The notes beneath the pieces are model-generated. The model made no database searches and was not told where the DNA came from. It worked only from the letters and a program-made list of their open reading frames with translations. Below are positions 11,041-16,186 of a DNA stretch of 64,000 bases, in pieces. The DNA is from Bradyrhizobium manausense (GTDB lineage: Bacteria > Pseudomonadota > Alphaproteobacteria > Rhizobiales > Xanthobacteraceae), in contig NZ_JAFCJI010000001.1 in the NCBI RefSeq assembly GCF_018131105.1, forward strand, positions 2,294,001 through 2,358,000, written 5' to 3'. The translations under genes were made by a program, and so were the position numbers. How positions within the stretch are numbered: position 1 is the first letter of the stretch; each line of letters begins with the position of its first letter.

Positions 11041-11619
11041 ATGACATCGCCTGAGGATTTTTCACGGCTGCAATCCGCGATGAGCCGGGCGGTGAAGGCG
11101 CATTGGAAAGCGTTTCTGTTCGAAGGCATCTTGCTCACCATCCTCGGCATTGCCGCGCTGATCCTGCCGCCGCTCGCAAGCCTGGCCATCACGATCTTCC
11201 TCGGCTGGATGTTCATGGTCAGCGGGGTCGGCGGATTGATCGCGACCTATTGGGCGCGCGCCACGCCGGGCTTCTGGTGGTCGTTGATCTCGGCGGCGCT
11301 GGCCGTACTTGCCGGCATGCTGCTGCTGGCCCGCCCGATGCAGGCCGTGCTGACGTTGACCATCGTGCTCGGCGCCTACTTCCTCGCTGAGGGCGTCACC
11401 ACCATCATGTACGCGCTGGAGCATCGCCGCGAGCTGAGCGGCCGCTGGTCGTGGCTGCTGATCTCGGGTTTCGTCGACATTGCGATCGCGTTCATGGTGA
11501 TCACGGGACTGCCGAGCACGGCGGAATGGGCCATTGGGGTGCTGGTCGGCATCAACCTGCTGTTCGGCGGCGCGACCCTGATCGGCATGGCGCTGGCGGC
11601 GCGCAAAAGCAACAGTTGA
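11041..11619 (+). CDS. HdeD-family (DUF308) membrane protein
   Basis: This protein of 192 aa has six hydrophobic helices arranged as repeated pairs ('GILLTILGIAALILPPLASLAI', 'LISAALAVLAGMLLLARP', 'LLISGFVDIAIAFMVI'). The architecture matches the HdeD acid-resistance family, whose biochemical role is unclear. I chose the ATG at 11041, which has GGAG 8 nt upstream, over an earlier in-frame start at 10996. It is followed by the aroG leader region, and nothing suggests a functional link. Confidence 0.85.
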   Translation: MTSPEDFSRLQSAMSRAVKAHWKAFLFEGILLTILGIAALILPPLASLAITIFLGWMFMVSGVGGLIATYWARATPGFWWSLISAALAVLAGMLLLARPMQAVLTLTIVLGAYFLAEGVTTIMYALEHRRELSGRWSWLLISGFVDIAIAFMVITGLPSTAEWAIGVLVGINLLFGGATLIGMALAARKSNS

Positions 11620-11652
11620 GGCGCCTCGAAGCCCCGCCTTCCCAATTGGGGG

Positions 11653-11681
11653 GTGACAAGGCGCCAGTGGCACGCTATATG
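11653..11681 (+). promoter_or_regulatory. Candidate promoter of the aroG leader transcript
   Basis: GTGACA (11653-11658) and TATATG (11676-11681) are 17 nt apart, close to a housekeeping -35/-10 pair. The predicted start falls at about 11688-11689, on the A of the leader-peptide ATG. No ribosome binding site precedes that ATG, consistent with a leaderless mRNA. Confidence 0.5.
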
Positions 11682-11688
11682 GCGATCC

Positions 11689-11769
11689 ATGATCACCGTC
11701 GCCACCAGCTATTTTTGGTACTTTAGCTACGACAGCTTGCTGGCGGCAGGAGGATCGCGCTCAATCTAG
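11689..11769 (+). CDS. Aromatic-rich leader peptide of aroG (26 aa)
   Basis: The frame reads MITVATSYFWYFSYDSLLAA followed by GGSRSI and TAG. Six of residues 8-14 are aromatic (Tyr-Phe-Trp-Tyr-Phe-Ser-Tyr), all three end products of the pathway started by the enzyme downstream. This is the hallmark of a transcription-attenuation leader: ribosome stalling at these codons senses charged tRNA-Tyr, tRNA-Phe and tRNA-Trp. The ATG lacks a Shine-Dalgarno sequence and lies at the predicted transcript start, as reported for rhizobial trpL. The terminator hairpin starts 23 nt after the stop. Confidence 0.88.
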   Translation: MITVATSYFWYFSYDSLLAAGGSRSI

Positions 11770-11820
11770 AATATTGAAGCAAACGTCCGAACAGCCGCCA
11801 GACCTGGCGGCTTTTTTATT
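11701..11820 (+). promoter_or_regulatory. aroG attenuator (alternative RNA hairpins)
   Basis: Four segments can pair in the classical way. Segment 1 GCCACCAGC (11701-11709) lies just before the aromatic codons and pairs with segment 2 GCTGGCGGC (11739-11747) with one mismatch. Segment 2 pairs perfectly (CTGGCGGC/GCCGCCAG) with segment 3 (11794-11801). Segment 3 pairs with segment 4 CTGGCGGC (11804-11811), giving the terminator. Stalling at the control codons would cover segment 1 and favour 2:3 (read-through); completing the peptide would cover segment 2 and favour 3:4 (termination). Confidence 0.85.
11793..11817 (+). terminator. Rho-independent terminator of the attenuator
   Basis: AGCCGCCA (11793-11800), loop GACC, TGGCGGCT (11805-11812), then a run of six T. 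The 8-bp GC-rich stem and U tract form a textbook intrinsic terminator placed 37 nt before the aroG start codon. Confidence 0.9.
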
Positions 11821-11853
11821 GGCCGGCAGGTTCTCAACAGACAGGAGCCCGCC

Positions 11854-12939
11854 GTGCTGAGCACGACTGACGATCTTCGTATCCGCGAACTGAAAGAGCT
11901 GAGCACGCCCGAGGAGGTGATGCGGGAAGTCCCGCGCACCCTCACGGCTACCCGCGTGGTGATGGCGGCGCGCAACGCCATCCACGCCATCCTCAATGGC
12001 CAGGACGACCGGCTCCTGGTTGTCGTCGGCCCCTGCTCGGTGCACGATCCCAGGGCCGCGCTCGAATATGCAGAACGGCTTGCGGCCTTGCGCGAAGAAC
12101 TCGCCGACCAGCTCGAGATCGTGATGCGGGTCTATTTCGAGAAGCCGCGCACCACGGTCGGCTGGAAGGGCCTGATCAACGATCCCGATCTCGACGGCAG
12201 CTTCGACATCAACAAGGGCTTGCGGCTGGCGCGCAACGTGCTGTCGGCGATCAACAACCTCGGTCTGCCCGCCGGCGCCGAATTCCTCGACATGACGACG
12301 CCGCAATACATCGCCGACCTCGTGTCGTGGGCGGCGATCGGCGCGCGCACGACCGAGAGCCAGATCCATCGCGAGCTGGCCTCGGGGCTGTCATGCCCGG
12401 TCGGGTTCAAGAACGGCACCGACGGCAATGTCCGCATTGCGGCCGATGCGGTGAAGTCGGCTTCGCATCCGCATCATTTCATGGCGGTGACCAAGCTCGG
12501 CCGTTCGGCGATCGCCTCGACCGCGGGCAATGAAGACTGCCACATCATCCTGCGCGGCGGCAGCAAGCCGAACTACGATGCGGCAAGCGTCGCGTCGGCT
12601 TGCAACGATCTGGCGAAATCCGGTGTCGCGCCGCTGGTGATGGTGGATGCGAGCCACGCCAATTCGAGCAAGAAGCCGGACAACCAGCCTCTGGTCACGG
12701 CCGACATCGCCGGCCAGATCTCGGGCGGCGAGAACCGCATCATGGGCGTGATGATCGAGAGCAATCTCGTCGCGGGTCGTCAGGACGTGGTGCCCGGCAA
12801 GCCGCTGACTTACGGCCAGAGCATCACGGACGGATGCATAGATTGGGCGACCACGGCCACCGTGCTGGAGCAGCTCGCTGATGCGGTCGAGATCCGCCGC
12901 AACGCCGCGCGCGCCGGACTGCACGAGCGCTCCGCGTAG
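11854..12939 (+). CDS. aroG: 3-deoxy-7-phosphoheptulonate (DAHP) synthase, class I (AroG/F/H type)
   Basis: It catalyses the first step of the shikimate pathway, joining phosphoenolpyruvate and erythrose 4-phosphate. The 361-aa length fits the E. coli AroG/F/H type. Visible motifs are 'VVVGPCSVHDP' (with the metal-binding Cys), 'VYFEKPRTTVGWKGL', 'AGAEFLDMTTPQY', 'GFKNGTDGN' with the PEP-binding Lys, and 'MVDASHANSSKKP' with the metal-binding His/Asp set. The start is GTG at 11854, with ACAGGAG 5-10 nt upstream. Expression should be set by the attenuator directly upstream. Feedback specificity (Phe, Tyr or Trp) cannot be read with confidence. Confidence 0.96.
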   Translation: MLSTTDDLRIRELKELSTPEEVMREVPRTLTATRVVMAARNAIHAILNGQDDRLLVVVGPCSVHDPRAALEYAERLAALREELADQLEIVMRVYFEKPRTTVGWKGLINDPDLDGSFDINKGLRLARNVLSAINNLGLPAGAEFLDMTTPQYIADLVSWAAIGARTTESQIHRELASGLSCPVGFKNGTDGNVRIAADAVKSASHPHHFMAVTKLGRSAIASTAGNEDCHIILRGGSKPNYDAASVASACNDLAKSGVAPLVMVDASHANSSKKPDNQPLVTADIAGQISGGENRIMGVMIESNLVAGRQDVVPGKPLTYGQSITDGCIDWATTATVLEQLADAVEIRRNAARAGLHERSA

Positions 12940-13301: not shown

Positions 13302-14396
13302 TCAGGTTTCGGGCGGATAGAGATGAACGTCGCCGCAATAGTCCACGATACGATAGCGCGTTTCCGTCCCCGCAGCATCCGCATCTGGTGCGGTATTTTG
13401 CGCCGCCAACACATAATTCGGTCCGACCGGCGACTTGCCGGCCCCACCGGGAATGTCGATCACATATTCCGGCTGACACAGCCCCGACACCCGCCCGCGC
13501 AGCTCGCGCATCAAGTCCTGCCCATGCGCCAGCGTCGTGCGCAGATGCGCCGTGCCAGGCGCGAGATCGCCGTGATGCAGGTAATACGGCTTGATCCGGC
13601 ACTCGACGAAAGCCCGCATCAGATCCGACAGAGCGACGACATTGTCATTGACGCCGCGCAGCAGCACGGACTGGCTCACCATGGGAATCCCGGCATCGAC
13701 CAGCCGCGCACAGGCGGCTCGGGCCGTGTCCGTCAGCTCGCGCGCATGGTTGGCATGCAGAGCGACCCACGTGGTTGCGCCTTCAACCTTCAGCGCAGCG
13801 ACCATGTCGTCGCTGATCCGCGCAGGATCGGCCACGGGCACACGGGTGTGAAGACGGATAATCCTGACGTGATCGATCGCGGCGAGGTCGGCCATGATCT
13901 CGCTCATTCGCCTCGGCGACAGCATCAAGGGATCGCCGCCGGTCAGGATCACCTCCCAGATCTCGCTGCGCGAGCGGATGTAATCGATCGCGGCGCGGTA
14001 GGCGGCCTCCGAGAGTGCGTTCTCCTTGCCTGGTCCGACCATCTCGCGGCGGAAGCAGAAACGGCAATAGACCGCGCAGACGTGAACCAGCTTGAACAGC
14101 ACGCGATCGGGATAGCGGTGCACGATCCCCGGCACCGGTGAGTGCGGATGATCGCCGATCGGATCGACGTTCTCGCCCGGCTGCATCTCAAGCTCAGCGG
14201 CGGTCGGAACGAACTGGCGGGCGATCGGGTCGTCGGGATCGGATGTGTCGATGAGTTCGACCAACGCCGGCGTGATCGCGACCGCATAACGCGCGGCAAC
14301 GCGCTCGAGCGCCGGCAGCGCCGTGGCAGGCGCGAGGTCCGCAGCTACGAGTTCGGCTGGTTCGCGCAAAGTCCGTGCAAGGTTGCTTTTGGTCAT
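13302..14396 (-). CDS. epmB: EF-P-(R)-beta-lysylation radical SAM aminomutase EpmB
   Basis: This lysine 2,3-aminomutase-like radical SAM enzyme (364 aa) makes (R)-beta-lysine, which EpmA attaches to elongation factor P. The 4Fe-4S cluster ligands are Cys107, Cys111 and Cys114 (CAVYCRFC). A PLP-binding Lys is expected in the C-terminal region (GGAGKSP). The gene starts inside the epmA stop codon (ATGA overlap), which fixes the start and implies coupling. The divergent efp gene supports EpmB over a free-lysine aminomutase, since those are usually longer and carry extra C-terminal oligomerisation sequence. Confidence 0.92.
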   Translation of the reverse strand: MTKSNLARTLREPAELVAADLAPATALPALERVAARYAVAITPALVELIDTSDPDDPIARQFVPTAAELEMQPGENVDPIGDHPHSPVPGIVHRYPDRVLFKLVHVCAVYCRFCFRREMVGPGKENALSEAAYRAAIDYIRSRSEIWEVILTGGDPLMLSPRRMSEIMADLAAIDHVRIIRLHTRVPVADPARISDDMVAALKVEGATTWVALHANHARELTDTARAACARLVDAGIPMVSQSVLLRGVNDNVVALSDLMRAFVECRIKPYYLHHGDLAPGTAHLRTTLAHGQDLMRELRGRVSGLCQPEYVIDIPGGAGKSPVGPNYVLAAQNTAPDADAAGTETRYRIVDYCGDVHLYPPET

Positions 14397-15457
14397 CTCT
14401 CGTTCAACGTCTCTTCTGCAGGCGGTGTCCACACCACCTGATCAATCCGTGTTGCGCCGCTCGCCAGCATCACCAGCCGGTCGAACCCGAGCGCGACACC
14501 GCTCGCCTCCGGCATCGCCGCAACTGCGGCCAAAAAGTCATCGTCCAGGGGATAGGCCTCGCCATAGCGGCGCTGCTTCTCCGCCATCGACTCGGTGAAG
14601 CGCTTGCGCTGTTCATCGGCGTCGGTGAGTTCGCCAAAACCGTTGGCGAGTTCGACGCCACAGGCATAGACCTCGAACCGCTCGGCGACCCTGGGATCGC
14701 TGGCCTTCACCCGCGCCAGCGCAGCCTCTGGAGATGGGTATTCGAACAGGATGGTCAAACGCCCCTGCCCCAGATGCGGCTCGACATGCTCAACCAGGAC
14801 CTTGCTGAAGATGTCCGACCAGGTGTCGTCCTCGGCGACCCGGACCTTGCCGGCGGCGGCTTGAGCGAGCGCGGCACGGTTACCCTCATTGCCCGAGATT
14901 GTCGACAGCAGGTCGAGCCCGGCAAACCGTTCGAAGGCGCCCGCAACGGTCAGCAACTCCGGCTCGGCGAAGGGGTCGGCCATCCGGCCCCGGAAGGCAA
15001 AGGTCCCGATCCCCGTCGCCTGCGCGGCCTGGGCTATGACAACCACCGTGTCGGCCATGATGGCGTCGTAGGGGGCGCCCGCCCGGTACCATTCCAGCAT
15101 GGTGAATTCGGGCAGATGCAGGTCGCCGCGCTCGCGGTCGCGGAACACCCGGGCGAACTCGAAAATCCGCTCCTCCCCGGCCGCCAGCAGCTTCTTGCAG
15201 GCGAATTCGGGCGAAGTCCGCAAGTATCGGCTGGCCCGGCTGCCATCAGGCCGGATGATCTCGGTCCGGGGGGCGTGCAGATGGGTCTCATTGCCTGGGG
15301 AGACCTGGAGGACAGAGGTTTCGACCTCGACAAAGCCCTGCTCGGTGAAGAAGCCCCTGACAGCCCCGGTGATGGCTCCCCTGGCCTGGAGGAACGGCCG
15401 CCGGTCGAGGTGCCGCGAAGGGGTCCAGAACGGCGAAATCAGCTTGTCCCCAGCCAT
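14393..15457 (-). CDS. epmA: Elongation factor P--(R)-beta-lysine ligase EpmA (PoxA/GenX)
   Basis: It is a lysyl-tRNA synthetase paralogue lacking the anticodon-binding domain (354 aa) and ligates beta-lysine to EF-P. Class II synthetase elements are clear: motif 2 'FEFARVFRDRERGDLHLPEFTMLEW' (split by a loop) and motif 3 'GVALGFDRLVML', with 'YACGVELANGFGELTD' in the amino-acid pocket. The start at 15457 (MAGDKLISPF) leaves the usual short N-terminus; the frame continues upstream only as antisense to efp. It is divergent from efp, 162 nt away, and overlaps epmB by 4 nt. Confidence 0.94.
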   Translation of the reverse strand: MAGDKLISPFWTPSRHLDRRPFLQARGAITGAVRGFFTEQGFVEVETSVLQVSPGNETHLHAPRTEIIRPDGSRASRYLRTSPEFACKKLLAAGEERIFEFARVFRDRERGDLHLPEFTMLEWYRAGAPYDAIMADTVVVIAQAAQATGIGTFAFRGRMADPFAEPELLTVAGAFERFAGLDLLSTISGNEGNRAALAQAAAGKVRVAEDDTWSDIFSKVLVEHVEPHLGQGRLTILFEYPSPEAALARVKASDPRVAERFEVYACGVELANGFGELTDADEQRKRFTESMAEKQRRYGEAYPLDDDFLAAVAAMPEASGVALGFDRLVMLASGATRIDQVVWTPPAEETLNER

Positions 15458-15619
15458 TAACCGACTGCCCCCTGAGCCAGCAAAGTGCTGGCATCCAACG
15501 GCAAAATCAGTATGTTGCGGCCCGAAACGGGCGCCGAGGTCTGATTTGAGGCCCCAAGTCCCCCATCGAATTGACCACGTCCTGGCCTGAGCCGGGCCAA
15601 GCAAGCAGGAAATATAGCT

Positions 15620-16186
15620 TTGAGAGTCATCGCCAGTTCTATTCGCAAGGGCAACGTGATCGAGCAAGACGGCAAGCTGTATGTCGTCGTCAGCGCCGAA
15701 AACATCCATCCCGGCAAGGGCACCCCGGTCAGCCAGATCGAAATGCGCCGAATCTCGGACGGGGTAAAGATCTCCGAACGCTACAAGACCACCGATCAGG
15801 TCGAAAAGGCCACCATCGAAGAGCGCAACTACACCTTCCTGTATGAAGATGGCGACGGCTACCACTTCATGAACCCCGAGACCTACGATCAGGTCCAGGT
15901 CTCCAAGGATGTTGTCGGCGAAGCCGCCGCCTATCTTCAGCCGGAGATGATGGTCAAGCTTTCGACCCACGACGTCAACGTGGTCTCGCTGGCGCTGCCG
16001 CAGCGCGTGACGCTGGAAGTGGTCGAGACCGAGCCGGTCACCAAGGGCCAGACTGCCTCGTCGTCTTACAAGCCGGCGGTGCTTTCCAACGGCATCCGCA
16101 CCACCGTGCCGCCGCATATCGCCGTCGGCACCCGCATCGTGGTAATGACCGAAGACGGCTCCTACTCCGAGCGCGCCAAGGACTAA
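15620..16186 (+). CDS. efp: Elongation factor P
   Basis: EF-P relieves ribosomes stalled at polyproline. The three domains of the usual 188-aa protein are present: a KOW-like N-domain, two OB-fold domains, and the C-terminal '[16 protein letters not shown]'. The modified residue is Lys33 in the tip loop 'NIHPGKGTP', as expected for an EpmA/EpmB substrate. The start codon is TTG (15620), confirmed by the conserved [12 protein letters not shown] start. The modification genes are divergent just upstream, an arrangement that could allow joint control. Confidence 0.97.

Follow-up and report, generated by a model that had tools for sequence, protein, structure and literature searches.

All coordinates refer to the window, that is, the whole stretch of 64,000 nucleotides that was analysed, and to its plus strand unless stated otherwise. 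The aroG gene was located at 11854-12939 with a GTG start, and its product was assigned to the class I 3-deoxy-7-phosphoheptulonate (DAHP) synthases by a match to TIGR00034 (E 2.6e-160, over the cut-off). The DAHP synthase named in the initial annotation was thus verified and its class was specified. The nearest named relatives of AroG were Bradyrhizobium proteins, up to 96% identical. This aroG was the only class I DAHP synthase copy found in its own genome, where one class II copy was found elsewhere. Further downstream, at 13302-16186, an EF-P gene (15620-16183, plus strand) was observed opposite genes for an EpmA-like lysyl ligase and a lysine-2,3-aminomutase-like protein (TIGR03822). Judging from their sequences, these genes probably form an EF-P modification cluster. 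The EpmA-like match covered residues 243-563 of a 574-aa frame, the real start of which probably lies well inside.

The aroG gene was preceded by a 26-codon frame at 11689-11769 (ATG at 11689, stop TAG at 11767-11769), which encodes MITVATSYFWYFSYDSLLAAGGSRSI and has similar counterparts in relatives. Direct reading confirmed the run Tyr8-Phe9-Trp10-Tyr11-Phe12-Ser13-Tyr14 that had been reported at codons 8-14 (11710-11730), and these were taken as control codons from the sequence, the alignment and a ribosome-position model. Strand 1, GTCGCCA (11698-11704), was able to pair with strand 2 in computed folding and was weakly conserved. Strand 2, CTGGCGGC (11740-11747), spans codons 18-20 and was assigned as the 5' arm of the antiterminator by complementarity and conservation. 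Its sequence was identical to that of strand 4 (11804-11811), the 3' arm of the terminator, and both were complementary to strand 3, GCCGCCAG (11794-11801). The terminator stem AGCCGCCA/TGGCGGCT at 11793-11812 had 8 pairs, 6 of them GC, with a loop of 4, and was followed by the T run TTTTTT (11812-11817), the first T of which lies inside the stem. Hence, the antiterminator-capable segment, the perfect 8-bp stem and the six T of the initial annotation were all found. Two terminator-like sites were present in 11400-12000, the second on the minus strand, compared with a mean of 0.3 in shuffles.

A -35 element GTGACA (11653-11658) and a -10 element CTATAT (11675-11680), separated by a 16-nt spacer, were recognized, the -10 element lying 8 nt before the leader ATG. 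They followed the pattern NNGACA-16/17-NTANNN, which was present at 53 of 56 alphaproteobacterial leaders with 7-10 nt between the second hexamer and the ATG (7 or 8 nt in 51). This pattern was chosen after viewing the alignment; with a gap of 5-11 nt, the GACA-type pattern was matched by 12 of 2800 shuffles. A stricter generic sigma-70 scan reported no promoter at the aroG leader. From the promoter position it is predicted that the RNA starts at or within ~2 nt of the A of the leader ATG, which would make the leader frame leaderless. Such a start, at or next to the ATG, has been described for the leaderless rnTrpL of Sinorhizobium meliloti in the cited passages (PMC7298713, PMC10117765). By eye, many Burkholderiales had a TATA-like box several tens of nucleotides before the ATG; therefore, a leaderless start would not hold there.

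The search of related genomes that the initial annotation had proposed was carried out. A class I aroG match was found in 40 of 297 genomes of the order. One match, of 81 residues with E 6.4e-4, was excluded, which left full-length genes in 39 genomes, including that of the window. All 39 had an upstream frame with at least four aromatic residues in seven codons, followed by a terminator. These 39 loci and 80 named loci (the best 80 of at least 591) gave a set of 119. A leader was present before 100 aroG genes of the set, a leader with a terminator before 95, and no leader before 19; these counts are not independent, as some loci were near-copies and the two sources overlapped in genera.

Such an arrangement could in principle arise by chance, if a frame that happens to be rich in aromatic codons lay next to an ordinary terminator belonging to the upstream gene. 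Shuffling alone did yield aromatic frames in 194 of 2340 dinucleotide-shuffled sequences, the leader search itself selecting for aromatic runs. However, leader and terminator together appeared in only 30 of the 2340. Among the 117 real loci with at least 300 bases upstream (L034 and L048 were dropped), 99 had the leader and 94 had both. Moreover, the conserved promoter pattern lies between the end of the upstream gene (11619) and the leader. We therefore consider the probability of a chance arrangement to be negligible, and the leader is treated below as a conserved element of aroG.

The distribution of the leader was then compared between groups, the labels of which were our own assignment from record names and kinship. 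Leaders were found at 56 of 58 loci of Alphaproteobacteria, where the two misses, Rhodopila (L042) and Rhizobium tropici (L060), both had weaker aromatic frames. All loci examined had a leader in Xanthomonadales (8/8) and in Burkholderiales (32/32), and none of the six examined in Enterobacteria/Vibrionaceae plus one other gammaproteobacterium had one. Among 15 unplaced loci, four had a leader, and those lacking it included Thauera, Azoarcus, Ferrovum, Methylotenera and Chitinimonas. Leader types were clustered in an AroG tree of 110 rows, from which nine loci with too little of the gene (L112-L120) were left out. The alphaproteobacterial and Xanthomonadales side of a branch with 100/98 support held 57 rows, 55 of them with a Phe-Tyr-Trp leader; the root of this tree was a midpoint root only.

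Further, the RNA model R1 was used to search for similar elements away from aroG. In the own genome, where the model was applied to 150 of 2815 first-look candidates, it recovered the aroG site with E 9.9e-29 together with four weak matches, the best of which had E 0.0126 (partial) and E 0.0151 (full length, without an aromatic run). By the upstream-frame rule, no aromatic leader was found before the class II DAHP synthase gene or pheA of the same genome. For 199 genomes of the order, stricter filters were applied and 16 candidates were scored in each; six of the matches that lay away from aroG were full length and had E of at most 0.01. Five of these were examined: four (L130-L133) were terminators without such a leader, and the fifth (L129) was a leader of tyrS.

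The amino acids encoded by the run were compared across the detected leaders. In Alphaproteobacteria and Xanthomonadales, every one of the 64 leaders had both Phe and Tyr and a single Trp in its eight-codon run. These 64 leaders comprised 54 unique peptides and 34 different runs, and the order of residues varied, as in YFWYFSYD, FWYFSYGS, YWYFRSSL, FFFGWYFS and FYFWYYGF. In Burkholderiales, Trp was present in 14 of 32 leaders and absent from 18. Taken together, Phe and Tyr occurred in all 100 detected leaders and Trp in 80.

Codon choice was compared between the leaders and the aroG genes of 91 loci. Phe control codons were 206 TTT to 47 TTC, compared with 68 to 478 in the genes, while Tyr control codons were shifted mildly (110 TAT to 107 TAC, compared with 200 to 320). 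In Bradyrhizobium, the TTT to TTC ratio for Phe was 29:0 in the leaders and 0:76 in aroG. In the window, TTT control codons are found, for example, at 11713-11715 and 11722-11724. The TTT bias may raise the sensitivity of the Phe control codons or serve the structure of the RNA.

Leaders of other aromatic genes were inspected for their composition. Upstream of trpE(G) in the own genome (TIGR01815; G000:C1 near 121 kb, L123), a frame with WW ended in RRWWRTS (MSTAARPSRRWWRTS), and no T-run terminator was detected by the script before this gene. In the tyrS family (f41), 20 loci were examined under a looser leader rule of three aromatic residues in seven; Tyr-rich leaders without Trp and with 0-2 Phe were found, and 17 loci had a terminator. 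These loci (L135-L154) were the best 20 matches from 41 genomes; a second, more distant copy was present in most of these genomes. The leaders of the tyrS-type tyrosyl-tRNA synthetase genes, at L129:532-652 and L135-L154, read, for example, MSAAFVYFYYVTDIPAAA or VYYY, and such a leader is a candidate tyrosine attenuator of tyrS. Since leader composition roughly followed the gene at aroG, trpE(G) and tyrS, functional sensing of all three amino acids at aroG was favored.

The proposal that Tyr, Phe and Trp are read together was thus borne out in one part: all three were kept in every leader detected in Alphaproteobacteria and Xanthomonadales. This is evidence of composition, however, and more than half of the Burkholderiales leaders had no Trp. 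We infer three-way sensing by the aroG leader from these sequence comparisons. A bolder reading, to which we give about even chances of being right, is that the leader works as a three-input OR gate in which a shortage of Phe, Tyr or Trp would each open the first shikimate step. In this reading, class I aroG would have carried the switch with it as an old module through Alphaproteobacteria, Xanthomonadales and Burkholderiales. One Trp codon and several Phe and Tyr codons would give unequal sensitivities, the disfavored TTT would tune the response to Phe, and the Trp input would have been lost in part of Burkholderiales.

The position of the control codons was measured relative to the core of strand 2; the search had required an aromatic run but not its place relative to strand 2. 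The aromatic codons were located 4-11 codons before the core. Among 89 unique leaders, the aromatic fraction was 0.98-0.99 at 6-7 codons before the core, 0.79-0.87 at 8-9, 0.38-0.65 at 4, 5, 10 and 11, and 0 at 1-2. Trp was found 5-8 codons before the core in 70 of 77 cases.

The effect of a ribosome at each codon was then modeled with a footprint from -16 to +12 of the A-site kept unpaired, pairs across the ribosome (sequence before it with sequence behind it) being allowed. For the window leader, the modeled probability of the 2:3 pairing fell from 0.85 at Tyr14 to 0.49 at codon 15 and to 0 at codon 16. Of the 95 leaders, 16 were modeled; in these, the probability was 0.66 or more across no fewer than the first four aromatic codons, and it had dropped to 0.05 or below no later than three codons past the last aromatic codon. 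At the last aromatic codon itself it was already below 0.5 in 8 of these leaders, as for Tyr14 in L090 and Phe15 in L033. Codons upstream of the run were equally permissive for 2:3 in this model.

An attenuator with the same run might in practice answer mainly to Phe, perhaps to Tyr, with the single Trp codon adding little. The regulation of Corynebacterium glutamicum aroR is a precedent, as its Phe-Tyr-Phe leader was reported in the cited passage to answer to Phe only (PMC11802643). The presence of Phe and Tyr in every detected leader but of Trp in four fifths, and the strong TTT bias of Phe codons beside the mild shift of Tyr codons, agree with such a response. On the other hand, exactly one Trp was kept throughout the alphaproteobacterial and Xanthomonadales leaders though its place shifts, and in all 12 modeled leaders with Trp its codon lay in the permissive zone, at a 2:3 probability of at least 0.78. 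We regard a response limited mainly to Phe as a serious, if tentative, possibility.

Stalling could also be a property of the nascent chain, in which case the aromatic peptide would arrest the ribosome alone or together with a free aromatic amino acid, and not via uncharged tRNA. TnaC is the model for nascent-peptide arrest with a free amino acid. The bulky aromatic runs are compatible in sequence with such arrest, but residue order and number varied by lineage to the extent of 34 runs in 64 leaders, and the position of the run relative to strand 2 fits stalling at codons. Arrest by the peptide was thus judged highly improbable, and stalling at codons short of charged tRNA was retained.

The three pairings were investigated by folding and by comparison of relatives. 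Computed folding of sub-regions gave -19.4, -26.5 and -14.5 kcal/mol for 1:2, 2:3 and 3:4, respectively. The region 11689-11818 folded better than its own shuffles, with z -2.55 and an equally good fold in 2 of 200. Across the leaders, the coding-part strand 2 and strand 4 were near copies of each other, and each complemented strand 3. Using a CCGCC/GGCGG core as the anchor, 83 of the 95 leaders with a terminator were aligned (12 were dropped), 81 of them unique, and the core was paired by construction. Outside the core, the 3:4 pair at -1 was GC in 44, AT in 35 and GT in 2 of the 81, and that at +1 was paired in 76 (AT 71, GC 3, TA 2). The 2:3 pairing at -1, +1 and +2 outside the core was possible in 42, 63 and 59 of the 81 leaders.

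In a 33-row alignment, the rows of which were picked from the set, 97.6% of the 3:4 cells were paired with nine two-sided changes, carried by two pairs, and none of 500 shuffles was as high. For 2:3, 87.9% of the cells were paired, compared with 16.7-64.4% when the strands were slid, while its covariation was not above chance in this alignment (two-sided changes in 2 cells, equalled by 234 of 500 shuffles). The support for 2:3 therefore comes from conservation and complementarity, not from covariation. The duplex z of 2:3 had a mean of -2.7 and was below -2 in 63 of 93 leaders. The 1:2 pairing was not column-conserved in the 33 rows: 70.0% of its cells were paired, a level that 485 of 500 shuffles equalled or exceeded. 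Its duplex z had a mean of -1.4 and was best in Bradyrhizobium (-2.2 to -2.4); of twelve groups, four lay between 0 and -1 and one reached +1.7. Some Devosia-like leaders had short or imperfect switches.

Hence, the statement that 1:2, 2:3 and 3:4 can all pair was correct for the window, but 1:2 was not column-conserved in relatives. Loss of the leader and hairpins in related genomes, which had been named as evidence against the attenuator, was not observed for the leader, 2:3 and 3:4; conservation of 1:2 was weak. RNAalifold placed strand 2 in a small hairpin with a conserved stretch just downstream, where the leader frame ends; the hairpin corresponds to A1 columns 59-85, which fall inside window positions 11741-11772. 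As modeled, this is a possible protector hairpin replacing 1:2.

The C-terminal part of the peptide (LAAGGSRSI, PLAEEG) was alike across classes. Together with the predicted leaderless mRNA and the rnTrpL/peTrpL precedent of S. meliloti, given in the cited passages (PMC7298713), this would suit a functional small peptide or a terminated RNA acting in trans, with attenuation being secondary. However, conservation of the C-terminal codons can be explained by their overlap with strand 2 and the adjoining sequence, and the aromatic run tolerates reordering and indels, indels of 3 and 6 nt being present within the leader frames of relatives. It was considered unlikely that a peptide or RNA acting in trans is the main function.

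Because the aromatic run, its spacing, the 2:3/3:4 switch and the promoter were all conserved, we propose that the aroG leader is very probably a classical ribosome-mediated attenuator, opened by a shortage of charged tRNA for Phe, Tyr and most likely Trp. The attenuator claimed in the initial annotation was thereby strongly supported. The start site, translation, stalling and termination in vivo are inferred as follows. RNA polymerase would start at the leader ATG or immediately beside it, with a ribosome trailing the polymerase. If charged tRNA for Phe, Tyr or most likely Trp were short, the ribosome would stall at codons 8-14 and leave strand 2, just ahead, free to pair with the emerging strand 3. 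The 2:3 pairing would block the terminator 3:4, and aroG would be transcribed. If all three were plentiful, the ribosome would run into strand 2 while strand 3 was being made, and with strand 2 covered, 3:4 would form and transcription would stop at ~11817. At equilibrium without a ribosome, before strand 4 is made, 2:3 was preferred over 1:2 (P 0.87 vs 0.01), and with a ribosome at the stop codon 2:3 was possible again (0.61), as it was in several leaders. Termination under plenty must therefore rest on timing.

A profile search of the own genome found no TyrR-type HTH, while the E. coli control was positive. TyrR was over the cut-off in none of 22 leader-bearing and in 4 of 17 leaderless genomes, and the leader-bearing genome of L056 had a match below the cut-off. 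Since no TyrR match was found in 13 of the 17 leaderless genomes searched, TyrR is no one-to-one replacement for the leader. If the proposed attenuation is true, it would account for the way in which bacteria that lack a TyrR-type repressor, this one among them, tune the first step of aromatic synthesis to all three end products by one RNA switch. The leader would be a natural, compact, multi-input aromatic sensor, in which multi-amino-acid sensing by one leader is open to codon-by-codon dissection.

It had been noted that most known attenuators respond to one amino acid only. This needs qualifying, as the ilvGMEDA and thrABC attenuators of E. coli are multivalent, one leader reading several amino acids of a branched pathway. 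They differ from the aroG leader in having branched-chain and Thr/Ile codons and in belonging to other pathways. The nearest Rfam family was Phe_leader (RF01859), which likewise combines an aromatic-codon leader with a terminator switch. Its best match scored 19.7 bits, below the gathering score of 55, and the aroG leader is thus not a member. With Rfam 15, only a tRNA reached gathering within the window, and ten aroG loci gave no matches.

The alphaproteobacterial trpL attenuators of trpE(G) follow the same logic, and in the cited passages the S. meliloti leader mRNA is leaderless (PMC7298713); they differ in having Trp codons only and in preceding another gene. The frame before trpE(G) in the own genome resembles Bradyrhizobium japonicum peTrpL, MSTAVAPARLWWRTS, as given in the same source. 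Attenuation has been proposed for proteobacterial DAHP synthase genes as well: a survey of Shewanella RNAs tabulated aroF, for a Tyr-sensitive DAHP synthase, as 'attenuator sensing tyr-tRNA' (PMC2659441), and attenuators were predicted before DAHP synthase-tyrA operons in two Vibrio species (PMC1173090). These concern other, gammaproteobacterial genes, and the cited passages give no leader sequence and describe no run of three amino acids. The aroR-aroF system of C. glutamicum resembles the aroG leader in having a leader peptide with a mixture of aromatic codons upstream of a DAHP synthase gene and in ribosome-mediated attenuation, a likeness of arrangement only. It is actinobacterial, its leader reads Phe-Tyr-Phe and responds to Phe, not Tyr, and Trp is unmentioned in the cited passages (PMC11802643, citing Neshat et al. 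2014; the leader also appears in PMC4046766).

No description of the proteobacterial aroG leader was found in the open literature, among the matches listed; subscription surveys were outside this scope, and an earlier prediction is possible there. The mechanism is thus of a known kind, and attenuation of DAHP synthase genes is already in print. Within the open literature searched, the aroG leader, its breadth and its three-amino-acid run appear to be new.
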